Of a stretch of DNA of 64,000 nucleotides, positions 40,598 through 54,583 are shown piece by piece. Every line of letters begins with the position of its first letter. Position 1 is the stretch's first letter. The translations under genes and the position numbers were made by a program. Source of the stretch: Dyadobacter sp. (GTDB taxonomy: Bacteria > Bacteroidota > Bacteroidia > Cytophagales > Spirosomataceae); the NCBI RefSeq assembly GCF_017744695.1, contig NZ_JAGIAS010000012.1:124001-188000 (forward strand), read 5' to 3'. The notes beneath the pieces are model-generated. The model did no database searches. It was not told where the DNA came from and worked only from the letters and a program-made list of their open reading frames with translations.

Positions 40598-40789
40598 TCA
40601 TCGCTGCTCACCAATCCAAACCGTTCAATAATATTCCGTTTATATTCGGGTAATTGGCAAAAAATAGTCGTCAGGTTTCACTTACTTTAAGCAAATCCAT
40701 GTTTATTTGTCGACTTCAAATTAGTTTGATGCAGCATTCATGATGAAGCTTATATCCTCTTCGAAATTCCTGTCCCCCAATCCGGCGCG

Positions 40790-41914
40790 ATGATTTCCTT
40801 TCCGACATTCCGAATCCGTTGCAATTGGCCACTGGTTATCATGCTACTCGTCAGCCCATTATGCCGTGCGCAATCATTTTACGCAGTCCTTGTGGCCGAC
40901 ACCAAAGATCCGTCATTAGGAGCAAGTTGCGAAAAAGATCTCGAAGAAATGTCCGGCACCTTACGGAACATCTCTAAAAAAATAGAATACAATTACCAGG
41001 AGCTGATTTGTAATCAGGACAAGTTCGGAAAAGGGGGCATTCAGGAAGCGATTTCCAAAATCCAATGCAAACCGGAAGACATTATTTTCTTCTATTATAC
41101 CGGCCATGGAATCAATACCGCAACCGAAAAAAGCGACTTCCCTATTCTTTATCTGAAAGATGAAAATATGGAACTGGAAACGGTTCATCGGCTGCTGAAA
41201 GAAAAGAAACCCCGTTTTTGCCTTACCATGGGCGATTGCTGTAATAACCTCTTCCCGGGCAGGCGCGGAATGCGCTCGGCCACGCCCGTGCTGAAAGGGA
41301 TCGGGGTGACGCAGGATACCAAAATCCTCCGTAAACTCTTCGTCGAAGCCAATGGCGACCTGCTCATCAGCAGTGCAAAAAAAGGTGAAAGGGCAACCGC
41401 ACATCCTAATGAAGGCAGTTTTTACAGCAATACCTGGATACAGGCGATGGCATATGCCGAAAACCACAACACGCATGTCTCCTGGGAAACCCTTCTCGCC
41501 GACGCCGAGAACCGCTTGCAGGAAAGCCTGAAAAGCTTACCGGACTCCCTGAAACACCATTCACAATGGGTGCGAAGCTTTCCGGAAACGGTACTGCCGT
41601 GCGCGGAGACCAGTTTTACGGAAATCAACCGGTTTCTGAACGTACTTGCAGATGAAAAACTGGGCTTCCATGAGCGTAACAAGTTACGGACTTTGGGTCA
41701 GAAAGGCTTTTTCGGACCTTCCGCGCAGGTGAGCATTTACATGAGCGACCCTGAAAAACCGGTGGAAACCCAGCCTGTCGACCTCTTCCTGAAAAGGATC
41801 GTGAACACGGCCCCGCTGATCGACGAGTTCAATTTCGTGGAGCGGCTTTCGACCCTGGGAAATGGATGCACCTATGATCTCGTGACATTGCAGGAGATCC
41901 GCAAAGCGAAGTAA
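40790..41914 (+). CDS. Exported caspase-family (C14-like) protease, first copy
   Basis: The 374-aa product has an export signal (LVIMLLVSPLCRAQ) and a caspase-like domain (about 30-260). The catalytic His is His106 in FFYYTGHG and the Cys region is TMGDCCNN (Cys150/Cys151), where most bacterial members have DACR. The domain start (YAVLVADTKDPSLGASCEKDLEEM) and the HGINTATEKSDFPILYL segment fit the family. The C-terminal 110 residues are unassigned. It opens a run of exported proteins on the plus strand. A protease role is expected from the dyad; targets are unknown. Confidence 0.85.
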   Translation: MISFPTFRIRCNWPLVIMLLVSPLCRAQSFYAVLVADTKDPSLGASCEKDLEEMSGTLRNISKKIEYNYQELICNQDKFGKGGIQEAISKIQCKPEDIIFFYYTGHGINTATEKSDFPILYLKDENMELETVHRLLKEKKPRFCLTMGDCCNNLFPGRRGMRSATPVLKGIGVTQDTKILRKLFVEANGDLLISSAKKGERATAHPNEGSFYSNTWIQAMAYAENHNTHVSWETLLADAENRLQESLKSLPDSLKHHSQWVRSFPETVLPCAETSFTEINRFLNVLADEKLGFHERNKLRTLGQKGFFGPSAQVSIYMSDPEKPVETQPVDLFLKRIVNTAPLIDEFNFVERLSTLGNGCTYDLVTLQEIRKAK

Positions 41915-41935
41915 ACCACCTTACCCCGACTCATC

Positions 41936-42547
41936 ATGATGAAATACATTTACCTCTACCTGTTTGTGGGCCTCTTTTCCGGCATCGGGCAGCTGCGCGC
42001 GCAACCCGAAATGGACGAGAAAAGACTCGCAGAGTTTCAGAAACTTACCCAGCAGCGCGTCAACGACCTGCAACTTTACATTTCCCTTATCGCCGATAAA
42101 AGTCTCTCCGTCGAGCAACGCGAACAGGCCGTGGAACTCGCGGTAAGTCTTTTTGAAAAGGATTATATGGTGAATGGAAAACGGCATACACCTTATGTAC
42201 AGGTATCCCGCAGGAGCGGCAAAATCTCGTCCGTACCCGTGCGTATCTACTTCAAAAACCTGATGAATGTGAAGTTCGACAAGGTAGAAATCACTTACTA
42301 CGACGCGGCGGTCGTATCCGAGTTTGAAAAAGGCACCGACGGGAATTACCACGCTACGGCAACCTATTACCAACAGTTTAAAGGGATGGACAAGCAAGGC
42401 AACCTGCTATACGGCAGCCGCGACCGCAAGGACATCCGCGTAACCGCGCAGAGCGCCGCCGTGTACGCGCAGGCGGGGAAGGAGGATTTGAAGATATTCT
42501 TCGGCGATATTACCGTGAGAGACACTGTCCCGATTCCCGGTTTCTAA
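41936..42547 (+). CDS. Exported protein of unknown function in the caspase cluster
   Basis: The 203-aa product has a signal peptide (MMKYIYLYLFVGLFSGIGQLRAQ), a helical stretch (about 25-80) and a mixed alpha/beta part with VPVRIYFKNLMNVKFDKVEITYYDAAVV. The fold looks like a small NTF2-like or immunoglobulin-type unit, but I cannot assign a family. It starts 21 bases after the first caspase gene and 11 bases before the next one, so it is surely co-transcribed. Confidence 0.75.
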   Translation: MMKYIYLYLFVGLFSGIGQLRAQPEMDEKRLAEFQKLTQQRVNDLQLYISLIADKSLSVEQREQAVELAVSLFEKDYMVNGKRHTPYVQVSRRSGKISSVPVRIYFKNLMNVKFDKVEITYYDAAVVSEFEKGTDGNYHATATYYQQFKGMDKQGNLLYGSRDRKDIRVTAQSAAVYAQAGKEDLKIFFGDITVRDTVPIPGF

Positions 42548-42558
42548 CGGCAACCACC

Positions 42559-43377
42559 ATGACCAGGCTTTGGCTATTCACGTTGCTCATACCCTTTTCG
42601 GAATTGCAAGCGCAAATCGCCCCCTCGCGGACCGACACTACCCGGCAAACGGGCCTTAACAAACGAGCGCCCGAAAGCTACATGCGCGGGCAAGTCAAGC
42701 ACGTAAGCGACTTTATTGACCGCTTTAACAATGCCATAAAAGCTGAAAATGGAAGCGACAATACGCTCAGAATGCTTTTCAATGAAGACGATCCCCGGTT
42801 ACCCGGCACCGGGCGCCCGTACCAACCCTATGCCAGCCGGGTGAATGCATTTATCCAATCGGTGCAAAGGGGGAAAATAATGATCCCCAAACGCAGTACC
42901 ATGAATGCCGTGATCGGGGTTACCGTGCGTCGCGACGGCCTGCCGGATACCCTGAAATTACATTTACGCAAGGATTACACGAGCGACAGCGCGGCTTACT
43001 GGCACATTATCAAGGTCGTCGCTCCCCGGCGGCTTTTGGAAGAAAAGGGAAATGTTTACAAAGCATCAGCCCCGGAGACACGTGTCGAACTTCCGCCTAA
43101 TGCGAATGAAGTGAGCTTTCTGCCGCTGCTCCGCGGGCTGAATGATTACCAGAGCCTAGCGCCATTTACGCATTGCCTGGAATGCCGCGACAAGGCGTGG
43201 CAAAAAGTCGAAAATGCGTTGCAAAGCGGCCGGATGACCGCCGAGACTGTGGTATCCAGCAAAATTTACCTAACCGCCGGCGACTGGGAAATGGAACTGA
43301 GCGAGTTTATACGGGAGAAGGAGAACTCAGGCTGGCTGATCAGCGATCTGATCGAAAAAAATGCAAATGAAAAGTGA
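42559..43377 (+). CDS. Exported protein of unknown function in the caspase cluster
   Basis: The 272-aa product has a signal peptide (MTRLWLFTLLIPFSELQAQ). Its middle carries DSAAYWHIIKVV, which resembles AESYWQIIELTL at the end of the next protein, so the two may share a domain. A CLEC pair sits near residue 210. No family is recognised. Spacing of 11 bases from the previous gene indicates one transcript. Confidence 0.72.
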   Translation: MTRLWLFTLLIPFSELQAQIAPSRTDTTRQTGLNKRAPESYMRGQVKHVSDFIDRFNNAIKAENGSDNTLRMLFNEDDPRLPGTGRPYQPYASRVNAFIQSVQRGKIMIPKRSTMNAVIGVTVRRDGLPDTLKLHLRKDYTSDSAAYWHIIKVVAPRRLLEEKGNVYKASAPETRVELPPNANEVSFLPLLRGLNDYQSLAPFTHCLECRDKAWQKVENALQSGRMTAETVVSSKIYLTAGDWEMELSEFIREKENSGWLISDLIEKNANEK

Positions 43378-43456
43378 TAAGGTTTTATGTCCGGGAAGGA
43401 TCAAGTACCAGATGCCCATCCTCGGGAATACCGGAAAACCTTAAAAATATACGCCG

Positions 43457-44047
43457 ATGAAAAATAGTCCGATTTCAAACCTGATGTTCAGAACCTTGTT
43501 CGCAGCGTTGCTGGTAGCTGCTGCGGCGATATTACCCGTGACCGCCGCGGTGTCGACCGCCGCGGTGCCGACCGCCGCGGTGCCGGTAGCGCTGGGTTCG
43601 TTGATCGACCTTTCGGCCAAAGCGAAAATCGATACGGCACTGGCATTCATCGGCCGGCTCCAACACCGGGTATCGGATAGCGAGTTCATACGGCTCCGCG
43701 ATCAGAGTGATTCCCTTTTTACAGTAAGCGGCTATATTAATCTCGAAAGCGCCGACGGCCAGCACCTGCGGCTCACCCGCGGCGAATTCCTCACCCGCGC
43801 CCGCGACCGCCAGGCCACCTACAAATTGAAAAAAGCCACATTGGTATTGAACGATCAGTTCCGCAAAGGTCCGAACGACCGCTGGTATTGCCGCAGCACC
43901 ACTTTCCATGAAGTAAGCCGGTTCGACGGCGACTACCCGATCCCTGAGAAAGTCACATCGGTAAAACGTAAACCAATGCGTGACAGGGCCACGGCCGGGG
44001 CAGAAAGCTACTGGCAGATCATCGAGCTCACATTAACCGAAAAGTAA
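43457..44047 (+). CDS. Exported protein of unknown function with Ala-rich tandem repeat
   Basis: The 196-aa product has an N-terminal hydrophobic signal followed by AAV-x-T-type repeats, encoded by three copies of ACCGCCGCGGTG with 15-bp period (43541, 43556, 43571). The rest is a small alpha/beta domain (FIRLRDQSDSLFTVSGYINLESADG, YWQIIELTL) similar in parts to the preceding protein. The repeat probably lengthens the linker after the signal peptide and may vary by slippage. No family is recognised. Confidence 0.7.
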   Translation: MKNSPISNLMFRTLFAALLVAAAAILPVTAAVSTAAVPTAAVPVALGSLIDLSAKAKIDTALAFIGRLQHRVSDSEFIRLRDQSDSLFTVSGYINLESADGQHLRLTRGEFLTRARDRQATYKLKKATLVLNDQFRKGPNDRWYCRSTTFHEVSRFDGDYPIPEKVTSVKRKPMRDRATAGAESYWQIIELTLTEK

Positions 44048-44087
44048 CCTGACTGAATCCATATTTACCGTAATCCAACTACCAGAA

Positions 44088-45563
44088 ATGAGATCCTCCA
44101 TCAAAATTGCCGCTTTATCCATGCTCGCATGGGCCGCTCTTTTTCCAGCATCCGAATCCCTGGCCCAAACCCGCCGGATGGGATTGAAAATGGACGACAC
44201 CAAATACCTGCGCCTCCCGCGTAAATCGTCCAATGTGAAACTGAAAGGCGCTATGCCCGCGTCGTACAGCATCCGCGAGTTCCTGCCTGAAATTGCCGAC
44301 CAGGGACAAGACGGAACCTGCGTGGGTTGGGCTGCCGCGTACTACATGCGCACCGGTATGGAAGCCGGCAAACAGGGAATAGGCAGTCAGCCGGCAAAAA
44401 TCGCGGCAACGGCGTTCTCACCCAGCTGGTTGTACGGACAAGTCAAATCGGGGCTGGATAACGGATGTGTGGAAGGCGTTTTCCTCGAAGACGCCCTGGA
44501 AGTGATGAAGACCAAGGGTACCGCTCTCCTGAGCTGCGCACCTGCGGACTGCGATGCCAAATACGAACAATGCGATGAGAAAGCGGCCGGCTACAAAATC
44601 GCCGATTATGCGACCCTCTTCAATCCGAAAGACAAGGATGCAACGCCCGAACAACGCATCAATGCGATCAAGGCCGCGTTGGTGGAAGGCAAAAATGCCG
44701 TACTGATCGGTATGATGGTACCGCCGTCGTTCATCGAGGAAGCGGCCGAATTTTGGCAGGCATCTCCCGCAGAAAGCGTTGACAACACCGCTGGCGGCCA
44801 CGCGATGGCCGTAGTGGGTTATGATGATAGTGTAAAAGGCGGATCGTTCCTGATCGCCAACAGCTGGGGCAAAGGCTGGGGTAAGGACGGTTACACCTGG
44901 GCCAAATACGACGACCTCGTCCGCTTCACCAGAAATGCCTACCAGATTTTCCCCGAACCCGCTGCCAAGCCGCAACCACAGGCCATTACCCTTAAAGGCA
45001 ATGTCGATTTCTCTATCGGAGCCGGCGGAATGGCGGTCCACTCAACGGTCTACAAGGGTATTCAGGTAACACCGGATCAACCGAACAGCAAAACCGAGAT
45101 GATCACGTACAATATGAGCCAGCCGTATGCCTCCGGAACGCGTTTTAAAATGATGATCAGCAATACGAAGCAATCCTACGTGTACATTCTCGGCTCCGAC
45201 CAGGAGAATCGCGTGTCGGCGCTCTTCCCCTACAACTCCGAAGAAGTGGTAACCTCGGCCATGGTACCGGCGAACAGTACGGTGCTTATGCCATCGGCCA
45301 ACACTTCGTTCACCCTCGATGAAGTGAAAGGGGAAGATTATTTCGTGGTATTTATATCTCAAAATGAATTGAACCTCGACGAGCTGGCCAACAAAGTAAA
45401 AAAAGCCGAAGGCACCATTGTACAAAAGGCTTATGCGGCATTGGGAGAAGAATTTATATCTCCCAAAGAAATTGCCTACGATCCGGGTAAAATCGCTTAC
45501 GAAGTAAAAGGAGATCCCAAAGGAAGTGTGGTGCCCATTCTGGTAAAAATAGTACACCAATAA
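44088..45563 (+). CDS. Exported papain-like (C1) protease with C-terminal DUF4384-like domain
   Basis: The 491-aa product has a signal peptide (1-27) and a C1 peptidase domain with the complete set of residues: oxyanion Gln72 and nucleophile Cys78 in DQGQDGTCVGWAAAY, His238 in GGHAMAVVGYDD and Asn258 in IANSWGKGWGKDGY. The C-terminal third (about 310-440; YVYILGSDQENRVSALFPYNS, DYFVVFIS) resembles DUF4384, a domain often linked to secreted proteases and kinases. No inhibitory propeptide is obvious. It ends the first half of the cluster and is followed by a strong hairpin terminator. Substrate is unknown. Confidence 0.9.
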   Translation: MRSSIKIAALSMLAWAALFPASESLAQTRRMGLKMDDTKYLRLPRKSSNVKLKGAMPASYSIREFLPEIADQGQDGTCVGWAAAYYMRTGMEAGKQGIGSQPAKIAATAFSPSWLYGQVKSGLDNGCVEGVFLEDALEVMKTKGTALLSCAPADCDAKYEQCDEKAAGYKIADYATLFNPKDKDATPEQRINAIKAALVEGKNAVLIGMMVPPSFIEEAAEFWQASPAESVDNTAGGHAMAVVGYDDSVKGGSFLIANSWGKGWGKDGYTWAKYDDLVRFTRNAYQIFPEPAAKPQPQAITLKGNVDFSIGAGGMAVHSTVYKGIQVTPDQPNSKTEMITYNMSQPYASGTRFKMMISNTKQSYVYILGSDQENRVSALFPYNSEEVVTSAMVPANSTVLMPSANTSFTLDEVKGEDYFVVFISQNELNLDELANKVKKAEGTIVQKAYAALGEEFISPKEIAYDPGKIAYEVKGDPKGSVVPILVKIVHQ

Positions 45564-45580
45564 ATAAATCGCCCGCACGG

Positions 45581-45612
45581 GAAGCCCATACAAATCAGAT
45601 TGTATGGGCTTC
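45581..45612 (+). terminator. Strong hairpin terminator
   Basis: Arms 45581-45593 (GAAGCCCATACAA) and 45600-45612 are perfectly complementary around a 6-base loop, 18 bases past the C1 protease stop. It should end the transcript of the first half of the caspase cluster. Only a short T-run follows. Confidence 0.75.
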
Positions 45613-45670
45613 TCGTTTACACATAATTGATTATTTTTAAATCAAATTATCACCATCAATCCTCTACGTT

Positions 45671-46465
45671 TTGGACAAGTCATTCTCTACCAGTCAAAGT
45701 AAAGGCAAAAAGAAGCATTGCAGCATAAATGCTCTCCTTCCGAAAACAATCGCTATTCCGGCTTTGATGGTACTTTTTTGCATTTTCTCCTCTTCCACAG
45801 CCTACGCACAGGACAAAATCATTCAAAAAAACGGGAAAGAAATCAAAGCAAAAGTGCTGGGTACCGATTCCCAATATATCCGGTATAAAAGATATGACAA
45901 TCCGAATGGTCCCGACTATTTCCTGTTCCGCTCCGATATATGGAAAATCGAATATGAGAATGGTAAAACAGAACTCCAGACAGAGCCTGAAAAAGTAACG
46001 CAGGAACCTGCCAGGAACACGACGGCCCAGCTCGAAACGTTGCAGCGAAAAGTCGCAAAGTACCAGAAAAGAAGCATGACGTTCCTCACTGCGGGTAGCG
46101 TAGCGATTGTGGCCGGGGCCATTACAATGCTGAAATTGACAGGCGACTATAACAAATATAAAAAGGCCGTTCAGGGGACTAATGATTCCTACACGACCTG
46201 GTATCAAACGAATTATAAAACGGCTCCTCCTGCGGGCGATCTCCAAAAACAGGAGAGTTTCGCCGCATTTGCCAAGCCCGGCATTTACGGCGGCGCGGCT
46301 GCATTAATCGGCGGCCTTGCACTGGATCTGATCGGACTCAGAAATATGCAATTGGCTCAGAAAGCCCGGACAGAACTCGCGGGGAAACAGAAAGAACTTT
46401 CATTGCAGCCATTTTACGATGCATCATACCAGACGACCGGTTTAAGAATCGCGCTTTCGTTTTGA
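45671..46465 (+). CDS. Exported/membrane protein with KNGKEIKAKV-type N-terminal module
   Basis: The 264-aa product, probably from a TTG start at 45671, has a hydrophobic signal (PALMVLFCIFSSSTAYAQ) after a basic N-terminus. A short beta module follows (IIQKNGKEIKAKVLGTDSQYIRYKRYDNPNGPDYFLFRSDIWKIEYENG, written here in parts: KNGKEIKAKV and SDIWKIEYENG). Then come a coiled coil (about 115-135) and two membrane segments (about 140-158 and 212-230). The beta module recurs at the start of the next protein. Function is unknown. Confidence 0.75.
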   Translation: MDKSFSTSQSKGKKKHCSINALLPKTIAIPALMVLFCIFSSSTAYAQDKIIQKNGKEIKAKVLGTDSQYIRYKRYDNPNGPDYFLFRSDIWKIEYENGKTELQTEPEKVTQEPARNTTAQLETLQRKVAKYQKRSMTFLTAGSVAIVAGAITMLKLTGDYNKYKKAVQGTNDSYTTWYQTNYKTAPPAGDLQKQESFAAFAKPGIYGGAAALIGGLALDLIGLRNMQLAQKARTELAGKQKELSLQPFYDASYQTTGLRIALSF

Positions 46466-46497
46466 CTCCTGCCCTCTTTTACCCTTTTCAACGTTCC

Positions 46498-47757
46498 ATG
46501 AAACACATTTTTACCTTTTTTGCCCTCACCTGTTTGGCGCTGTCCCATTCGGAACCGACCATTGCGGGAACCGCCCCCGCCGATACACTCTATTTGCGAA
46601 CACGCGAAAAGAAAGTCGTTGAAATCAGGGAAGTTTATCCTGACCAGGTAAAATACAAATCAGCGAATGGAAAAGGCCTGGTAACCGTGCCCGTCAAAGA
46701 CATCGCTGAAATTGTGTATAACAATGGTATTAAGGATGTTTTCAACGCCTACCATGCAGCCGGAAAGCCGGAAATCAAATGGCTGAGTAATATTTCATAC
46801 AGCGATAGACCGGAAGTAAGGCTGACCGCCTGCGTGCTCAATGAGCCCGAAAAGGTCCAGATCGAAGTGAATGGAACGCCCGCACCCGTAGCAGCGCGTT
46901 CATTCAAAACGGTGAAGGAAGAAGGCTGCTCCGGCGGCATGCAGATTTCACAGCAAGTTGCATTGAAGGAAGGAAAAAACAGCATCAGGCTGATCGCCAG
47001 CAATGGCTCAGGCGCCAGCCATTCGGAAACGCTATCCATTCTGTATGAAAAGTCCAAAAAGCGCATTGCGCTGGTGATCGGCAATTCGAAATACCAGTCG
47101 GGCAGCAAGTTGCAGAACCCTGAAAACGATGCAAAAGCCATTTCTCAAAAACTTACCGGACTCGGGTTCAACGTCATAGAGCGGATCGATGCCAACCAGG
47201 GCGACCTTCGGGCAGCAGTGGCGCAGTTTGGCAGCAGCGTGCAGAGCCAGGATTTCGAAGTCGCGCTCTTCTACTACGCCGGTCATGGTATCCAGGTAGC
47301 AGGCAAAAACTACCTGATGCCGGTCGATATCAGCCCGCAATCCGAAATGGAGCTGAAAGTACTGGCCGTTTCGGCCGACGAGATCCTCGACCAGATGTCC
47401 TCCAACGATGAAAATTCTCAAAGAACGAACATTATGATACTGGACGCCTGCCGTGACAATCCGCTGAGCCGCACCTGGACGCGCAGCTCGGGCGCAAAAG
47501 GGCTCGCAGGCATGAGCGCGCCTCCGGGTACACTCATTACCTTTTCGACCAAACCCGGATCGACTGCCCTGGATGGCGACGGCAAAAACAGCCCGTATAC
47601 CTCCGAGCTGCTGAAAGCGCTCGACGTGCCCGACCTGCGCCTGGAAGACATTTTCCGCACGGTGCGGGTCCGGGTAATGGAGCTAACCAACCGGCAGCAG
47701 ATCCCGATGGAAAACAGCCTACTCACCCGTGAACTGATCCTTAACCGGACCAGGTAA
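46498..47757 (+). CDS. Exported caspase-family (C14) protease, second copy
   Basis: The 419-aa product has a signal peptide, an N-terminal beta module (REKKVVEIREVYPDQVKYKS, VPVKDIAEIVYNNGIKDVF) and an Ig-like stretch (about 95-185). A canonical caspase domain follows (about 188-419), with His263 in LFYYAGHGIQ and Cys318 in MILDACRDNP. NPENDAKAISQKL is the classic family start. A complete dyad suggests active cysteine protease with preference for basic or acidic residues that cannot be told from sequence. The start at 46498 is chosen because it opens a signal peptide; the frame extends 36 bases upstream. Confidence 0.92.
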   Translation: MKHIFTFFALTCLALSHSEPTIAGTAPADTLYLRTREKKVVEIREVYPDQVKYKSANGKGLVTVPVKDIAEIVYNNGIKDVFNAYHAAGKPEIKWLSNISYSDRPEVRLTACVLNEPEKVQIEVNGTPAPVAARSFKTVKEEGCSGGMQISQQVALKEGKNSIRLIASNGSGASHSETLSILYEKSKKRIALVIGNSKYQSGSKLQNPENDAKAISQKLTGLGFNVIERIDANQGDLRAAVAQFGSSVQSQDFEVALFYYAGHGIQVAGKNYLMPVDISPQSEMELKVLAVSADEILDQMSSNDENSQRTNIMILDACRDNPLSRTWTRSSGAKGLAGMSAPPGTLITFSTKPGSTALDGDGKNSPYTSELLKALDVPDLRLEDIFRTVRVRVMELTNRQQIPMENSLLTRELILNRTR

Positions 47758-47777
47758 CATTATCCGTTCAGCATGCT

Positions 47778-49244
47778 ATGAAACGGTTCCTGACCGTCCT
47801 GTTCTTCGTTTTACCACTGCATTGCTCATTGGGGCAAGAGCTCAGCCCGTATTACAAGATCAAAGCGGCCGACCGGGTGAAGCAGGTGCTGAAAGACTTT
47901 GAATCGGCATTCGGGCTGCTGACAAACCCCTATATCATTGATTCCGAAGAGCGGGACGAAGCCAGCTACCGCATGCGCGCAAGCCTGCGCGACGACGCCC
48001 GTTTTGAAAATGACCTCGTACCGGACCACAAGGGCGCCAAAAACATCGATTTCGCCGAGTACCAGCGGATCGCGTTCATTAGCTACAAAAAGAGCGGACT
48101 CACCTACCACGCCGACTGGGATGAGGCTGAATTCAAGGTCGTTCCGCAAGGTTACCTGGTGCTGTTTTATGGCTCAAAATCGCTTTTCGGAAACTACCAG
48201 GGCGTGAAACGGCTGCAACTGGAAAACGTGCCCTGCCGCGCCGGGGTGTTTATCAAGGTCGTTGAAAATCAAGTGACCGAAGCCCGGATAGGCTTCATGG
48301 ATACCGACTTAAAGGAGAAAGGGAAAAATACGATCTCCCTCACCGATCAACGCAACCCGCTGGAATTCATCACCCTGCCTGAGGTGATCGATAAACTGTC
48401 GGGGCAGGTCGCACGCGCCATTCCCAAAAGCGGCGTAACCAGACTGTTCATTGAGGAGATTACATTCCAGGGGCTGGGCGTGTCCAATGATTTTTCCAAA
48501 CAACTTACCGGCACATTGAAGTCGGCGCTGACGCGTATGAACAGCGACATTCAGATCGGACTGAGCGCAACGCGAAGCATGGATGCGTTGCTGAAACTGA
48601 AAGGCGGCTATCAGAAGGCCGGTAACTTCCTGAAAATCGGGGTACAGCTTTTTGACGGGTACGATCAGCCGGTCGGAAGCGAGCTGTTTGCCGAGATTTT
48701 GCTGCTCAACATTCCCAATGCAGAAATCGAGCCTGCGGAACATCTCGTACGCGAGGCGCAGCGCATACGGGAGATCACCGATTCAAAAACCGCCGGCGGG
48801 GACATCAAAGCGACCGAATTGCTGTTGGAGGTGAGCACCGACAAAGGTTACGGGCCGCAGTCCTACCGCGAGGGGGATATTATGCGTTTGAAAGTAAGAG
48901 CCAACAAACCCTGCACGGTTCGGATGATTTACCGGGACGCCGCCAAAAACATTGTGCGGCTACGCAATGACGATTTCAGAATCGCTGCCGATGCCGTGGA
49001 TAAATGGATTGAAATACCCGAAAAATTTGAATGCGCGGCGCCTTTCGGATTTGAAATGCTGCTCGCTTATGCCACCGAAGGGAATTTCAAACCGATTGAA
49101 AAAATACAGGAGCAGAATGGCTTCACATTTATTCTCGACGATTTGAAGAATATAGTAGATATTACCGCCTCCGGCAATGAAAAAGAAAAGATTGTAAAAT
49201 GCACTATTCCGATTACCACACAGGCAAAAAGAAAGGCGTTTTGA
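47778..49244 (+). CDS. Exported DUF4384-domain protein
   Basis: The 488-aa product has a signal peptide (MKRFLTVLFFVLPLHCSLGQ), a first domain of unknown type (about 25-190), a central alpha/beta part resembling a lipoprotein-like assembly domain (about 200-330) and a C-terminal DUF4384 domain. The last is marked by GDIMRLKVRANKPCTVRMIYRDAAKNIVRL and FGFEMLLAYAT. DUF4384 proteins often accompany caspase-like and C1-like proteases in secreted systems. It follows the second caspase gene by 20 bases and is probably a substrate-binding or scaffold partner; this is inference. Confidence 0.8.
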   Translation: MKRFLTVLFFVLPLHCSLGQELSPYYKIKAADRVKQVLKDFESAFGLLTNPYIIDSEERDEASYRMRASLRDDARFENDLVPDHKGAKNIDFAEYQRIAFISYKKSGLTYHADWDEAEFKVVPQGYLVLFYGSKSLFGNYQGVKRLQLENVPCRAGVFIKVVENQVTEARIGFMDTDLKEKGKNTISLTDQRNPLEFITLPEVIDKLSGQVARAIPKSGVTRLFIEEITFQGLGVSNDFSKQLTGTLKSALTRMNSDIQIGLSATRSMDALLKLKGGYQKAGNFLKIGVQLFDGYDQPVGSELFAEILLLNIPNAEIEPAEHLVREAQRIREITDSKTAGGDIKATELLLEVSTDKGYGPQSYREGDIMRLKVRANKPCTVRMIYRDAAKNIVRLRNDDFRIAADAVDKWIEIPEKFECAAPFGFEMLLAYATEGNFKPIEKIQEQNGFTFILDDLKNIVDITASGNEKEKIVKCTIPITTQAKRKAF

Positions 49245-49286
49245 ATGCATTGAAATAAGAATGAAATTAAGTTAATATCGATTTGA

Positions 49287-49949
49287 ATGACGGATTCCTG
49301 CAAACGCTATCGTGATTCTGATTTAGTATTTTACGAAGAACTGCTTCATGAAAAACGGGAAGCGTTTTCTTGTTTATACCTGCAAACCTACCAGCAATGC
49401 ATTCCTTATGTGCTCAAACGTGGCAGTAATCAGGAGCAGGCGGAAGACCTTTTGCAGGAATGCCTGGCCATTTTCGTCAGCAAAGTACGCGACGGCAGCT
49501 ACGTTTACCAGGAAGGCACGCGGATTACCACCTATTTTCATCGGATTTATATCAATCAATGGAAAAAAAGCCTCGACCAGCTCACCCGGCGTGCGGAGGT
49601 GAGGCTGGAAACGCGGCTGGCGGCAGATGACGAGGAGGAATCTTACAAAGGCTCAGCCGGCGGGTCGTTCAGGATCGCGGGTGTGGACGACGAGGGCAAT
49701 GCGTTCAGCACCGACCTGCCCGACGCCGTTTCCCAGGCCTATGACGAGGAAGAACGCAACTGGATATTCAAAAAGCTCGATCGGGCGTTTCAACTTCTGG
49801 CGGAAGACTGCCGGAAAGTACTGAAATGGTTTTATGTCGAAGACCGCTCATTGCGCGACATTGCCGGCGAACTGGGCATGACCGAAGCCTCCGCCACCGT
49901 AAAACGCTTCAAATGCGCCAAATACCTGAAAGAGAAATTTCATTTGTAA
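49287..49949 (+). CDS. ECF-type RNA polymerase sigma factor
   Basis: The 220-aa protein has sigma region 2 (about 25-95; FSCLYLQTYQQCIPYVLKRGSNQEQAEDLLQECLAIFVSKV, of which QAEDLLQECL is the core) and region 4 (about 150-215; CRKVLKWFYVEDRSLRDIAGELGMTEASATVKRFKCAKYL). A longer linker than usual joins them (about 100-150). It directs transcription in response to a membrane signal. The next gene encodes a membrane protein with an anti-sigma-like N-terminus, so the two probably form a sigma/anti-sigma pair controlling the caspase cluster or the following lipoprotein. Confidence 0.88.
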   Translation: MTDSCKRYRDSDLVFYEELLHEKREAFSCLYLQTYQQCIPYVLKRGSNQEQAEDLLQECLAIFVSKVRDGSYVYQEGTRITTYFHRIYINQWKKSLDQLTRRAEVRLETRLAADDEEESYKGSAGGSFRIAGVDDEGNAFSTDLPDAVSQAYDEEERNWIFKKLDRAFQLLAEDCRKVLKWFYVEDRSLRDIAGELGMTEASATVKRFKCAKYLKEKFHL

Positions 49950-50015
49950 TGATAAGAATCGGCGGAAACGCGTATCAACCTATAAAATACCACCAGCGAA
50001 TCTCGATTTGAGCAT

Positions 50016-50873
50016 ATGGAATTATCGGAAGAAACCTTTCATGAAATCCACCAATACCTGAGCGGCCAGGGCACGCCGGAAGAGCGCGCAGCGTTCGAGC
50101 GCCGGATGAATGCCGACGAAGAACTGGCGCGTGAAGTGGCATCTCAGCAACGTATCCGAAATGGCCTGAAAGCGAATGGATACAAGGCGCTTTTCAAAGA
50201 CATTCATGCCCAGCTGGAAAGCGAAGGCGCATTACCCGGCAAACCGCAAGCCGACGCGAAGATCGTGCCGCTCGCTCCCGACCATGCCCGGGCGAATGCG
50301 CGCTGGCCGTACCTGGCCGCGGCAGCAAGTGTATTAATTGCCGTCGGTTTGGTCTGGTATTTCAATTTCGGCCCCGAAGATCCCCAGGTAGCTTCCGACA
50401 CGCCGACCGTGAAGGATACCGTCACACAAACGCCACCGACAGAGCGGCCCGACACCGCTAAAAACAATGCGCCGGTGCAGCAGCCTGTCAAACCGGCCCC
50501 GGCCAGAGTCAATACAAGCGAGTTTTTTGCCACCTACTTCGATACGAACGCGGAGCTCAAAAGCCCATTTTCAGGAGAGAAGCTGGGGGTAAGTCCTTCG
50601 GCCATAGCCCAATGGCGCTCGGATACCGCGCATGTGCAGCAAGGTATCCGCTATCTTGCCAACCGGGAGGCCGCACAGGCTTTGCAGGAGCTCGGTCAGG
50701 TTGAAAACAGCCGGTACCAGCAGGTAAAAGGCACCGCCGATTGGTACAAGGCCCTTGCCTATTTGCAGCAGAACGACCTGAAAAACTGTAAGGAACAACT
50801 GAAAAAGGTCATGGCAGATCCGGACAATACATATAGCAAACAGGCCACAGAACTATTAGCCAAAATCCAATAA
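50016..50873 (+). CDS. Membrane-anchored anti-sigma-like protein with C-terminal TPR-type helices
   Basis: The 285-aa product has an acidic helical N-terminus like anti-sigma factors (ETFHEIHQYLSGQGTPEERAAFERRMNADEELAREV), one membrane segment (about 93-113) and a Pro/Thr-rich linker. A periplasmic helical domain with TPR-like repeats follows (GIRYLANREAAQALQELGQVENSRY, WYKALAYLQQNDLKNCKEQLKKV). It likely holds the ECF sigma factor encoded 66 bases upstream and senses something outside the membrane. The signal is unknown. Confidence 0.75.
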   Translation: MELSEETFHEIHQYLSGQGTPEERAAFERRMNADEELAREVASQQRIRNGLKANGYKALFKDIHAQLESEGALPGKPQADAKIVPLAPDHARANARWPYLAAAASVLIAVGLVWYFNFGPEDPQVASDTPTVKDTVTQTPPTERPDTAKNNAPVQQPVKPAPARVNTSEFFATYFDTNAELKSPFSGEKLGVSPSAIAQWRSDTAHVQQGIRYLANREAAQALQELGQVENSRYQQVKGTADWYKALAYLQQNDLKNCKEQLKKVMADPDNTYSKQATELLAKIQ

Positions 50874-50906
50874 TCCATACCTCACCTCCCATCGATATTT
50901 TATTCC

Positions 50907-52799
50907 ATGAAGCGATTATTTGTTTACATACTCCTTGCCTCGGCCACCCTCGGTTGCCACATCGACATGCCGCAGAAACCGTTGGCAAAGTTCCGGTTTA
51001 CACCTGAAAACGGCTGCCAGGCGCCTTGTGAAGTCACATTTACAAGTGAGTCGGAGAATGCGGTGTCATTACAGTGGGACTTCAACGACGGCCTGCCTAT
51101 GCAAACGGCATCGGGAAACGAAATTAAACGCACATTTACATCGGGAAAAATTTACGAGGTAAAGCTGATGGTGAAAGGCGTCGACGGCGGTACGAGCGGA
51201 GAAACGCGGTCCGTCAAGATCGATGCCGCGGCGGCATCAGCACCCGAGGCGGATTTCAAATACACCATTACCAATGACAGCATCGCCCCTGCAACGGTTA
51301 CATTTAATAACCAGTCGAAAAACGCCACCACCTATACCTGGGACTTTGGTGACACCGGTTCTGCTTCCAACACAAGTGCAGACCAGAACCCGGTTCATAC
51401 CTTCGAAAATGCGGGCAGCTACGTGGTTACGCTGACGGCCAAGAACGATGAAAATGTGACGGACACCCAAACCTACACGATTGTGGTGAAGGCACAGGTA
51501 CCGAGCGTGGACGCGATCAGCATTTCGAGCGGAAGTAATTTTACTACGGATATTCTCGCAGATAACAGCGGAAATATTTACATCTGCGGTGAAGCTGCGG
51601 GCACGATCCAGTTGGGTAATGGTAAATCCTACACATCACAATCCGGCTCTACGGACTTCTTTATAGCCAAATACAACAGTGCCATGCTCTGTCAATGGGT
51701 GACCGGTGGAGGAAGCACAGCCGACGACCACGCCAACGGCCTTGCGCTCGACGGAAACGGTGATGTGTATGTAACTGGTTTCCTGTCGGGTGCGCTCGTG
51801 GGTGGGGGTACGTCGGCGAAAGGCGGCCTTGACGGCTTTGTGGCTAAAATCAACGGATCTTCGGGCGTTCGGCAGTGGATCAAGACTTTTGGCGGTGCAG
51901 ACAAAGACCAGGGGCGCTCCATTGCCTATTTCAACAATAAAATATACCTCACCGGCTTCGTCACCGGCAACATCGATTTTGGCGGTACTGCGTCATCCGC
52001 CAATGGTACCGATGCATTTCTGGTATCGGTGAACCCATCCAGCGGAGAATTCGCGCAACCGACGATCTTCGGAGGTGGCGGAGAACAACAGGTTGAGGAT
52101 ATGACCATCGATACTGATGGAAATATTTACCTCACAGGCGCATTTGCGGGAACAATGTCATTCCCCTCTGTTGTGCAGTCACTATCTGCTGCGGGGGAAT
52201 ACGATGTGTTCGTGGCCAAATGGGCCGCAAGCTCCGGTCAGTTTCAATGGGCTAAACGCGCAGGTTCCGGTGCCGACGATTTCACCTACGATATTGTGGT
52301 GGACGCTTCCAAAAATGTTTACGTAACGGGCATGCATGATGGAAACATCACCGAACTGGGTTTATCTGCCTCAACATTTAAAAATGTATACCTGGGCAAA
52401 TGGAATGCCAACGGAGAAGTGCAGAAAGGCAAAAACGGCTTCAATGAATTGAAAGACGATTTCCACGGGGGCGTTGCACTAAGTACCAACGGAAATATTC
52501 TGATCGCAGGCTCATTTGAAGACAACGGTCGCTTCCCGATGGCGACCGGTCCACAGAAAAGCGGCAAGGGAAATATCGATATCCTGATCACCGAGGTAGA
52601 CCCCTCAGAACTCAATGCGACGGGCCGGTTCACGGTGTCTGATGGTGGCACAGGCAACGATCGTGTGAACAGAATTTGCGTTGCATCCGGTTATGTCTAC
52701 GCCACAGGCTGGTTCAGAGGAACTGCCACATTCAATAATGTCCCATTAACCGGGGTCAGCAGTGTGGATAACACCTTCATCGTCCGCTACAAGCTGTAA
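50907..52799 (+). CDS. PKD-domain and SBBP-repeat lipoprotein
   Basis: The 630-aa product has a lipoprotein signal (YILLASATLGCHID, Cys17), two PKD domains (about 26-107 and 115-195; the second contains TYTWDFGDTG) and a propeller of SBBP-type repeats. Examples are DNSGNIYICGEAAGTI, DGNGDVYVTGFLSGAL, DTDGNIYLTGAFAGTM and DASKNVYVTGMHDGNI. Such proteins are exposed on the surface and may bind other proteins or carbohydrate. It follows the sigma/anti-sigma pair by 33 bases and ends at a terminator, so it is likely a target of that sigma factor. Confidence 0.85.
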   Translation: MKRLFVYILLASATLGCHIDMPQKPLAKFRFTPENGCQAPCEVTFTSESENAVSLQWDFNDGLPMQTASGNEIKRTFTSGKIYEVKLMVKGVDGGTSGETRSVKIDAAAASAPEADFKYTITNDSIAPATVTFNNQSKNATTYTWDFGDTGSASNTSADQNPVHTFENAGSYVVTLTAKNDENVTDTQTYTIVVKAQVPSVDAISISSGSNFTTDILADNSGNIYICGEAAGTIQLGNGKSYTSQSGSTDFFIAKYNSAMLCQWVTGGGSTADDHANGLALDGNGDVYVTGFLSGALVGGGTSAKGGLDGFVAKINGSSGVRQWIKTFGGADKDQGRSIAYFNNKIYLTGFVTGNIDFGGTASSANGTDAFLVSVNPSSGEFAQPTIFGGGGEQQVEDMTIDTDGNIYLTGAFAGTMSFPSVVQSLSAAGEYDVFVAKWAASSGQFQWAKRAGSGADDFTYDIVVDASKNVYVTGMHDGNITELGLSASTFKNVYLGKWNANGEVQKGKNGFNELKDDFHGGVALSTNGNILIAGSFEDNGRFPMATGPQKSGKGNIDILITEVDPSELNATGRFTVSDGGTGNDRVNRICVASGYVYATGWFRGTATFNNVPLTGVSSVDNTFIVRYKL

Positions 52800-52911: not shown

Positions 52912-52999
52912 ATTTTTGTTACAATCCGGTTTAATTAAAATTGTATTGTCCCCGTCCGGACCGTTCGGTCGTCGTAAGGGAAATCAAATCAATTCCATC

Positions 53000-53335
53000 A
53001 TGAAAGAATTCGCATTAATCTTCCGGCTTAACAATCAGACCGATTTCCGTCCTACACCGGAGCAGATACAGGAGCGCATGAACTGGCTTGCGGGTATTGC
53101 CGCGCAGAACAAACTCGCCGACAAAGGCAATACGCTTTCGAATGAAAGCGCCAAAACGGTGTATGCCGACAATGTGGTTACCGACGGCCCCTTTACCGAA
53201 ATCAAGGAATTCGTCAGCGGGTATGTGATCGTCAAAACCGACACCATCGAAGAGGCCGTGGAGCTCGCGAAAGCCAACCCGATATTCAAAATCGGGGGGA
53301 ATATCGAAGTAAGGGAAATCGTACAGCGCAAGTAA
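53000..53335 (+). CDS. DGPF-domain (YCII-related) protein
   Basis: The 111-aa soluble protein carries the defining DGPF motif at residues 62-65 (VTDGPFTEIKEFVSGYVIV), and PIFKIGGNIEVREI closes the ferredoxin-like fold. DGPF proteins are the regular partners of ECF42 sigma factors, one of which starts nine bases downstream. They are proposed to take part in the regulatory circuit, but the mechanism is unclear. The ATG at 53000 is favoured because the frame's upstream part is not protein-like. Confidence 0.9.
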   Translation: MKEFALIFRLNNQTDFRPTPEQIQERMNWLAGIAAQNKLADKGNTLSNESAKTVYADNVVTDGPFTEIKEFVSGYVIVKTDTIEEAVELAKANPIFKIGGNIEVREIVQRK

Positions 53336-53344
53336 CTTACTCGA

Positions 53345-54583
53345 ATGGCTGAAATCCCCGAAATACTGCCCGGCCTCTTCAGAAGGGAGTATACCAAAAT
53401 GACGGCGGTACTATGCCGTCATTTTGGATTAAAACACATTGAAATAGCGGAAGATATCGTGAGCGAAACTTTTCTGAAAGCCAGCGAAACATGGCCATTG
53501 CAAGGTGTTCCGGAAAATCCGACCGCGTGGCTGTACACGGTTGCCAAAAACAAAACAAAGGATTACCTCAAACATACCCGGATTTTCGAAACGCAGGTCT
53601 CCCCCACGCTGCTGCGCGGCCCGGGCCAATCGGAACCTGCATTCGACTTCTCGGCTGAAACAATCGCTGACAGTCAGCTAGCCATGATTTTCGCGGTGTG
53701 CAACCCCGCCAATTCCCCCGAAAGCCAGATCAGCCTCGCATTACAAATCCTGTGCGGTTTCAGCATCACCGAAATCGCCGACGCCTTTCTCTCCAAACCT
53801 GAGACTATCAAAAAAAGGCTCCTGCGGGCGCGGGCTAACCTGCGGAACGACCAGTTCCGGCTAGAACCTTTACACCCCACGGAAGTGCAGACGCGCCTCG
53901 ATGTCGTGCTCCGCACACTTTATTTGCTCTTCAATGAAGGGTATTTTTCCAAATCAGGCAACGCCCTCATACGCAAGGACCTGTGCGCGGAGGCCATGCG
54001 CCTTACCCATATGCTGACCGAAAATGCGGTCACCAACTCACGGCTGGTGGAAGCGCTGCTGGCATTGATGTGTTACCAAAGTTCCAGGTTCGAAGCGCGA
54101 CTAGACGGTCATGGCCAAACCATTTTGTTCGAAGCGCAGGACCAGGACATGTGGGACACGGAGCTGATCGACCGCGGCCATTACTACCTGGTCAATGCCT
54201 GCTCGGGCAGCGTGGTTTCCAAATACCACATCGAGGCCGGCATTGCCTATTGGCATACCACCCCGCCCGGGACGCAGAAGTGGGAGCATATCCTGCATTT
54301 ATACAACCAGCTGATCGTCATCGAGTACTCGGCCGCAACAGCGCTCAACCGGACATTCGCCTTTGCCAAAGTGTACGGCCATGAGGCCGGTTTGGCAGAA
54401 GCCCGGAAGCTTGGGCTGGAAAACAACACCTACTACCATTCATTGCTCGGCTATCTCTATACCCCCGTCTCCGCCGAACAAGCAGCCGAACATTACCGCC
54501 GGGCCATTGGCCTCTCCCAATCACCTGCCGAAATCCGGACGCTCGAATACGAATATGCGCGGCTGACGGGCACTACGCCATGA
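53345..54583 (+). CDS. ECF42-type sigma factor with C-terminal TPR-like extension
   Basis: The 412-aa protein has sigma regions 2 and 4 in the first 180 residues (IAEDIVSETFLKASETWPLQGVPENPTAWLYTVAKNKTKDYL in the first, CGFSITEIADAFLSKPETIKKRLLRARANL in the second; cores AEDIVSETFL and SITEIADAFL). It continues with a long helical C-terminal domain (about 190-405; LYLLFNEGY, LCAEAMRLTHML, HYLLNACSGS-like segments). That extension and the adjacent DGPF gene place it in the ECF42 group, in which the extension is needed for activity and no classical anti-sigma is present. Targets are unknown; autoregulation of this pair is typical. Confidence 0.9.
   Translation: MAEIPEILPGLFRREYTKMTAVLCRHFGLKHIEIAEDIVSETFLKASETWPLQGVPENPTAWLYTVAKNKTKDYLKHTRIFETQVSPTLLRGPGQSEPAFDFSAETIADSQLAMIFAVCNPANSPESQISLALQILCGFSITEIADAFLSKPETIKKRLLRARANLRNDQFRLEPLHPTEVQTRLDVVLRTLYLLFNEGYFSKSGNALIRKDLCAEAMRLTHMLTENAVTNSRLVEALLALMCYQSSRFEARLDGHGQTILFEAQDQDMWDTELIDRGHYYLVNACSGSVVSKYHIEAGIAYWHTTPPGTQKWEHILHLYNQLIVIEYSAATALNRTFAFAKVYGHEAGLAEARKLGLENNTYYHSLLGYLYTPVSAEQAAEHYRRAIGLSQSPAEIRTLEYEYARLTGTTP

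Follow-up and report, generated by a model that had tools for sequence, protein, structure and literature searches.

An 11-gene run in the genome of Dyadobacter sp. (NCBI RefSeq assembly GCF_017744695.1; 7.83 Mb) raises the question of whether exported cysteine proteases can be tied to a sigma factor of their own in one signalling system. The genes, designated A to K, occupy positions 40,790-52,799 of the stretch analyzed here, which is called the window (64,000 nucleotides; contig NZ_JAGIAS010000012.1, positions 124,001 to 188,000), and all are on the plus strand in the list of open reading frames (ORFs). They encode two caspase-family proteases (A and G), a papain-like protease (E), an extracytoplasmic function (ECF) sigma factor (I), a putative membrane anti-sigma factor (J), and six further proteins. 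The comparison of related genomes suggests that the cluster may encode a coherent envelope system for proteolytic signalling that has an ECF regulon of its own, in which a protease would free I. This reading is favoured only tentatively, at a little under an even chance.

Proteases and Regulators of the Cluster

The first-pass annotation of the window described two caspase-family proteases and a C1 protease among genes of one strand, nearly all with export signals, and the present analysis agrees on these points. Gene A (40790..41914) encodes an exported caspase with a match to the Pfam family Peptidase_C14 (e-value 1.4e-11; 44.9 bits, above the cut-off of 21.4) and the catalytic dyad H106 and C151, seen also in the family alignment. 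Its C-terminal domain of about 110 residues is distantly B-like with hhalign. The catalytic His is kept in 21 of the 25 A rows of the alignment. Gene G (46498..47757) encodes another exported caspase with a much higher Peptidase_C14 score (2.3e-39; 135.9 bits, same cut-off). Its dyad is H274/C330 in a longer frame that starts with TTG, and both residues are kept in 29 of 29 rows; C330 is the Cys318 of the first-pass annotation if the start is the ATG at 46498.

Gene E (44088..45563) encodes an exported papain-like protease (Peptidase_C1, 6.4e-11; 43.2 bits, cut-off 20.7) with the triad C78, H238, and N258, so that its active-site Cys78 had been named correctly, and a C-terminal DUF4384 (1.4e-14; 54.3 bits, cut-off 27). 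The Cys and the His are lost in 4 of the 32 E rows. The E relatives without them, in loci L052, L053, L054, and L060 (genomes, contigs, and loci are numbered G, C, and L), are likely pseudo-proteases. In L058 and L062, A-like caspases that lack the catalytic His form a pair beside a C1 protease that retains Cys and His.

Gene I (49287..49949) encodes an ECF sigma factor (TIGR02937, 7.9e-16; 58.1 bits, above the cut-off of 42.9; Pfam Sigma70_r4_2, 3.2e-6). The product of J (50016..50873) is a putative anti-sigma factor with one transmembrane segment near residue 100 and a C-terminal periplasmic region. The assignment is based on a match to NF052375 (1.4e-9; 38.3 bits, below the cut-off of 100), on hydropathy, and on relatives; the adjacency of I and J is conserved. 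The pair had been annotated as an ECF sigma factor with a membrane-anchored anti-sigma/TPR-like partner. Of this description the sigma factor and the membrane anchor stand, the anti-sigma match lies below its cut-off, and the TPR-like region goes back to a reading of the sequence and to weak matches (FimV C-terminus, 0.09).

Hydrophobicity over 19 residues peaks at the N-terminus in A to H and in K and at residue 100 in J, and I has no such stretch. Export is called throughout from this crude hydropathy scan of 19-residue stretches, not from a signal-peptide predictor.

Conservation and Co-Occurrence

An orthologue of A (at least 63% identity) was found in 10 of 48 Dyadobacter genomes; the search matched 15 genomes in all, the other five weakly (about 22-28% identity). 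All 10 genomes retain E to K and the second caspase. Co-occurrence in related genomes had been set in advance as one of two tests of the annotation, and the genes proved to be kept across genera, with the order of A and E to K preserved in seven named Dyadobacter genomes, where A and B are joined in one and C and D are missing in two. In D. beijingensis (L011 6455-7630, identical to L133 10921-12096), A and B apparently form one 391-aa gene, and C and D are missing. Loci L006-L010 and L012 were equated with six of the ten genomes, and the distances from A to the promoter-like element between I and J described below agree.

Beyond the genus, a profile of A (e-values up to 1e-50; at most the best eight candidates scored per genome) revealed the gene in 35 of 222 genomes of the family, in 11 of 36 genera and at 41 places. 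In a class-wide search of 395 genomes with at most the best four candidates scored, seven genomes outside the family matched A, and most of these matches span the caspase domain only. G618, from another family of the class, carries a full-length distant A (7.2e-45) beside relatives of B (2.3e-18) and C (1.5e-24) at L119 9127-15614, with a second A-like gene beside this run.

Within 15 kb of the 41 A places, H is found at 39, a second caspase at 37, B at 32, E at 30, I at 28, J at 27, C at 25, D at 18, and F and K at 12 each. Two of the places are on short contigs (G116:C101 and G841), and the gene maps come from a longest-ORF caller, which may hide genes. The sigma factor gene and the papain gene are distributed together: both are present at 28 places, I without E at none, E without I at 2 (G054:C68 and G143), and neither at 11 (Fisher 2.5e-8, without kinship correction). 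With a distance of 12.5 kb, the corresponding counts are 26, 0, 4, and 11. At six loci (L112, L115, L130, L131, L135, and L138), A, B, C, a further caspase, and H are found with neither I nor E nearby, and L113, L114, and L137 are also without both. In G100, which holds one of the places lacking both, an I-J-caspase-E run lies on the same contig about 30 kb from A.

A is linked to I in 10 of the 11 A-bearing genera, and the layouts differ. Dyadobacter and G015 have a single run from A to J, which extends to K in Dyadobacter. At nine loci (L049, L050, L051, L056, L109, L110, L111, L126, and L127), a G/A/H run converges, tail to tail, with an I-J-E' run, where E' is a papain without DUF4384 (Pfam check on L051) and the I of L056 was detected by profile only. 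L128 and L129 have one run in the order I-J-A-D-E-B-C-H. Fusions join A with DUF4384 in L093 and A with B in L113 and L137.

The cluster of G124 is surrounded by a long array of caspase and caspase-FGE-like genes (C21:14000-52900; L185 and L186), and 13 of the 17 C14 matches of this genome are on that contig. FGE domains have a C-type-lectin-like fold. In G000, the genome to which the window belongs, three more C14 matches lie close together outside the window (contig C2:284073-292052) in long frames of 1302, 1076, and 1375 codons.

A Promoter-Like Element at Regulator and Protease Genes

The gap between I and J contains a promoter-like element, TGATAAGAATCGGCGGAAACGCGTATCAAC, which begins right after the stop codon of I (49950..49979, plus strand). 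It was first spotted by eye in the output of a dyad search for promoters, whose own best count was 3 per set versus 2-3 in shuffles (4 in the joint set, which was run without shuffle control). The element has the form TGATAAG-N15/16-GTATYAAY and is located between I and J in Dyadobacter and two other genera.

A search of 12 whole genomes with the pattern TGATAAGR-N13/15-NGTATYAAY gave 19 matches, against 0 for the reversed control. In each of eight Dyadobacter genomes (G000 and seven others) there is exactly one match, and it always lies in the I-J gap. G066 accounts for nine matches, each at a gene of the system or at a caspase gene, and G015 for two, of which one falls in the I-J gap and the other within an unrelated gene. 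The two Dyadobacter genomes that lack an exact match have similar sequences in the I-J gap, TGATAACA...GTATCAAC in G158 and CGATAAGA...GTATAAAA in G151, and the I-J gap of G124, which belongs to another genus, contains TGATAAGG...GTATTAAC. The same or close versions were seen in the I-J gaps of L132, L133, L134 (G158), L043, and L045.

With the pattern TGATAAB-N15/16-GYATYRAT, 38 matches were found in 16 genomes, versus 3 in the reversed control; 11 of them are in G066, where the control gave 0. Several matches outside G066 fall inside genes and look chance-like (15 regions viewed). Nine of the 11 G066 sites end in GGTATTAAT, and the remaining two are inside other genes. The nine precede J' (a relative of the anti-sigma gene), caspases near the cluster, a D'-I operon, A, D (within the C frame), and three caspase-FGE genes on other contigs. 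G066 has 14 C14 matches, of which five head a unit behind the element, or nine if followers in the same direction are included. At L044 of this genome, the sigma operon and the A operon diverge, and the element is present on each side of the region that separates them; the pattern was built from this sequence and others resembling it.

Of 33 regions upstream of A operons, 5 contain the full element, versus 4 of 803 background regions; this test left out L044, included one locus twice, and is partly circular because several of the A-operon sites had contributed to the pattern. Three of the four background matches are themselves at genes of the system: one is the L046 site, which recurs in L122, one is at a caspase-FGE gene in L124, and one is at J in L043. 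The unlinked caspase sites of G066 and the I-J gap sites of Dyadobacter and G124 were found after the pattern had been shaped.

A position weight matrix built from 17 sites was used to scan the plus strand of eight Dyadobacter clusters. The I-J gap is the best site at six of the eight loci, scoring 20.1 in five and 15.0 in L012. A second, weaker match to the element lies 82 bp before D in the window (43375..43405, plus strand; score 15.6), and it begins with the three bases of the C stop codon. The I-J site of the window, at 15.0, ranks second to it, and the I-J site of L011 is third (6.7). The site before D is present at all six Dyadobacter loci that have D (15.6-20.0).

A variant, TGATAACC...GCATNRAT, had 24 matches in 14 genomes and 3 in the control. 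It is located on the E-bearing contig in three genomes of genus g17 (G100, G091, and G116); A is on the same contig as E and the variant in two of the three, and I and J were looked for in G100 only. Upstream of A in the window, a block TTTATTTG...CAAATTAGTTTG (40701..40728, plus strand; coordinates counted by hand) is a possible promoter that differs from the I-J element. It is strongly conserved in Dyadobacter among eight aligned upstream regions, one of them shortened by a longer annotated start.

The shared promoter-like element suggests that the sigma switch controls the protease set. Control of the proteases by the sigma factor, as the first-pass annotation supposed, is supported to the extent that sequence can show, by an element that joins sigma, anti-sigma, and caspase operons. 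Against it stands the absence of the element upstream of I itself.

A Model of Proteolytic Signalling and Its Alternatives

In the favoured reading, A to H and K would be exported, the caspases A and G and the papain-like E would constitute a periplasmic proteolytic set, and B, C, D, F, and H would be partners or scaffolds of these proteases. J in the inner membrane would retain the sigma factor I. An envelope signal would activate the proteases, and one of them, most likely E, would cut J in its periplasmic part, or a J-bound protein, and thereby free I. E is the preferred candidate, as the occurrence of its gene follows that of I and J. Freed I would transcribe J and the protease genes from the TGATAAG/GTATYAAY promoters, which would create a feedback, and in some relatives it may also drive the scattered caspase-FGE genes. 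Cleavage of J by a protease of the set is proposed by analogy with Craspase (PMC10028731) and with regulated anti-sigma proteolysis (PMC8999054), as outlined in the consulted sections of these papers. The composition, the export-type N-termini, the co-inheritance, and the shared element with its placement can be read directly from the genomes; the recognition of the element by I, the cleavage of J by a protease, and the nature of the signal are what we infer from them. It is the placement of the element that makes I, rather than another factor, its probable reader.

The cluster may even represent an extracytoplasmic, immune-like circuit based on caspases, in which an exported caspase/papain cascade would free the ECF sigma factor and induce caspases genome-wide, some of them lectin-like; this extension is unlikely, with perhaps one chance in a few. 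If true, such a circuit would stand beside Craspase as its periplasmic counterpart and would have a parallel in extracellular zymogen cascades outside the bacteria. The role of caspase homologues in bacteria is still debated; here they appear with export-type N-termini and in the company of another clan of cysteine proteases. The candidate sigma factor and promoter found with them make their role testable.

Several observations weigh against the favoured reading. The cutting of J by the papain is proposed from gene co-occurrence rather than from direct support. No I is present within 15 kb at 13 of the 41 A places, two of them on short contigs, and the A-B-C set of L119 is without E, H, I, and J within the 19.5 kb fetched; thus, the caspase part can exist without the sigma switch. 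None of the 15 loci tested has the full element upstream of I, and its sites precede J, A, D, or caspases. A half-site, GATAA[CG], preceded I in 9 of 11 loci, compared with 55 of 368 background regions, but in 0 of 9 held-out loci (L126-L129, L055, L059, L043, L132, and L133). As the element is not upstream of I, strict autoregulation of the sigma gene is not indicated, except via the D'-I operon of G066. The matrix score of the I-J site in the window (15.0) is within the range of 30 shuffles, with maxima up to 16.3; what lends this site weight is its genome-wide uniqueness and its conservation, and sites of this kind had served to shape the pattern. The eight Dyadobacter sites count as one inherited event. 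Finally, ECF genes are dense, with a mean of 8.3 per Mb (5.3-13.9 in 16 genomes), which corresponds to a chance of about 22% of finding one in 30 kb; therefore, weight was put on the specific I-J pair and the element.

This density of ECF genes is also what would speak for a chance neighbourhood of unrelated exported proteins and an unrelated ECF unit. Such an accident is barely credible in view of the conserved order in Dyadobacter, the link of A to I across genera in varied layouts, the fusions, and the shared element. The cluster genes are not regarded as chance neighbours because all 10 A-bearing Dyadobacter genomes keep the cluster and because I and E co-occur over the 41 places. A more serious alternative takes the proteases as outputs only: J would sense a signal through its periplasmic region, or be cut by another protease, and I would induce envelope proteases for the quality control or turnover of proteins in the periplasm. 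This explanation is simpler and fits nearly as well as the favoured one. It requires no more than the shared element in front of J, A, D, and the caspases, J has a periplasmic region of its own, and regulated intramembrane proteolysis is the usual ECF route according to the consulted part of PMC8999054. It leaves unexplained why the papain co-occurs so closely with the sigma pair (28/0/2/11), and why E' stands directly behind J in nine convergent clusters. Overall, we consider it somewhat unlikely.

Defence of the envelope, or kin discrimination, was also considered. Lectin-like caspase-FGE proteins and their partners would detect an invader, the proteases would kill or lyse the cell, and the sigma factor would arm the population. 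Caspase-FGE genes are indeed numerous in the relatives G066 and G124, and they are the one hint at recognition of the kind that the self/non-self option of the first-pass annotation would need. The distribution of the system is patchy (10/48 Dyadobacter and 35/222 family genomes), and predicted conflict systems often contain caspase and FGS domains, as stated in the consulted passages of PMC8195603 and PMC7159879. Against this, Pfam scans detected no FGE proteins in the Dyadobacter cluster, and a PADLOC scan of A to J gave weak matches to caspase models only (best 7.2e-9), apart from one stray restriction-enzyme match (H, 0.039); NTPase or diversity-generating (DGR) partners are not claimed to be absent, as no search was aimed at them. 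A role in defence is improbable.

Other Genes of the Cluster

Genes B, C, D, and F showed no family match above curated cut-offs in Pfam and further profile libraries. B (41936..42547) encodes an exported protein whose fold has no assignment, with a distant likeness to D (hhalign probability 69) and to the C-terminus of A (61). C (42559..43377) is exported, has no assigned function, and evolves fast, with 50-73% identity to five Dyadobacter relatives. D (43457..44047) is likewise exported and without an assigned function after library scans, comparison of relatives, and hhalign. F (45671..46465) is an exported or membrane protein by its ORF and hydropathy, with an uncertain TTG start. The idea that one NTF2-like domain recurs in B, C, D, H, and the C-terminus of A was considered and found no support beyond the A C-terminus, B, and D, since neither C nor the N-terminus of H ever exceeded a probability of 20 against B or D with hhalign. 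The AlphaFold model of A, built from 8 close sequences, was too poor for use (mean predicted local distance difference test score (pLDDT) 44.5).

H (47778..49244) encodes an exported protein that consists of an unassigned N-terminal part, an LpoB-like middle domain (198-309), and a C-terminal DUF4384. Two DUF4384-like domains had been annotated in the cluster; the one in E is clear, and the match in H remains below the curated cut-off of 27 (5.3e-4; 20.4 bits). The AlphaFold model of H has a mean pLDDT of 52.5, mostly 60-84 over residues 200-310, with some confidence only in the LpoB-like part and parts of DUF4384. With this mixed confidence, the middle domain, a candidate LpoB/TolB-N-like fold, resembles the structures 4q6l (Foldseek e-value 1.7e-4) and 4q6z (Z score 10.1, root-mean-square deviation 2.9, 102 residues aligned). 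After three LpoB entries, the next structural matches to H have Z scores of at most 7.1. The predicted DUF4384 is an Ig-like sandwich. H relatives in another family of the order (L083-L086 and L088) are encoded in different operons, in a conserved run with a PD40/OmpA-like protein (recognized by eye), a protein of about 775 aa, and a TPR-caspase-like protein; the one 775-aa protein scanned had no Pfam match.

K (50907..52799), found mainly in Dyadobacter, encodes a lipoprotein with an LGC box, recognized by eye, and two PKD stretches and SBBP in Pfam, as had been annotated. Pfam scans of the cluster proteins gave no match to sorting domains of the type IX secretion system. Directly 3' of K, at 52916-54583, are what we take to be a small DGPF/YCII-like gene and a second sigma-like gene. 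They are probably outside the cluster because they were not found in three of the seven Dyadobacter loci (L009, L011, and L012).

Comparison with Known Systems

Craspase, the type III-E system of Csx29, Csx30, and CASP-sigma, is cytoplasmic and, to our knowledge, has no papain. In the consulted part of its description, the caspase-like Csx29 cleaves Csx30, the inhibitor of an ECF-like sigma factor (PMC10028731). The cluster is similar to it in tying a caspase-family protease to an ECF-type sigma factor and an inhibitor. It differs in that Craspase is RNA-guided and uses Csx30 (PMC10028731), whereas the proteases of the cluster have export-type N-termini and the presumed inhibitor is a membrane anti-sigma factor. 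No Cas7-11 gene is among the eleven scanned cluster genes, and no CRISPR search was made.

EACC2-caspase systems pair with an ECF sigma factor and a DUF1822 TPR protein, according to the consulted section of PMC8195603. In contrast, no DUF1822 match was obtained for A to I, and J has no Pfam match at e-values up to 0.1; the EACC1 caspase model NF047832, with a cut-off of 140, was not reached by G (57.6 bits) or A (23.2). The cluster further differs from these systems by the export-type N-termini of its proteases and by the additional C1 papain and DUF4384.

Conserved operons of a metacaspase and a sigma-70 factor are reported from Myxococcus, Anaeromyxobacter, Haliangium, Sorangium, Ralstonia, and Fibrobacter (PMC3501461). 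They also join a caspase-type protease to a sigma factor; they belong to other phyla, and the consulted part of their description names no anti-sigma factor, papain, or DUF4384. ECF54, whose context includes CHAT, subtilase, and carboxypeptidase genes, resembles the cluster in placing an ECF sigma factor near protease genes, and differs in that it is proposed to work without an anti-sigma factor in the consulted passage of PMC8999054. Canonical pairs of an ECF sigma factor and a membrane anti-sigma factor, such as those under regulated proteolysis with RseA and DegS, are similar to I and J in the one-transmembrane, anti-sigma-like J. Unlike in RseA/DegS, the first protease in the cluster, if any, would be a papain or a caspase, not DegS.

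Searches of an open-access library, which covers subscription papers and bioRxiv preprints little or not at all, did not bring up a system of this composition among the papers listed. The statement of the first-pass annotation that no characterized system has this composition is therefore retained for the composition as such and narrowed for its parts, as pairings of caspases with ECF or related sigma factors are in print (PMC10028731, PMC8195603, PMC8999054, and PMC3501461, in the portions consulted). Coupling of a caspase to an ECF sigma factor is already known from Craspase and EACC2 systems, as far as these portions describe them; what is new here is the combination of exported proteases from two cysteine-protease clans.

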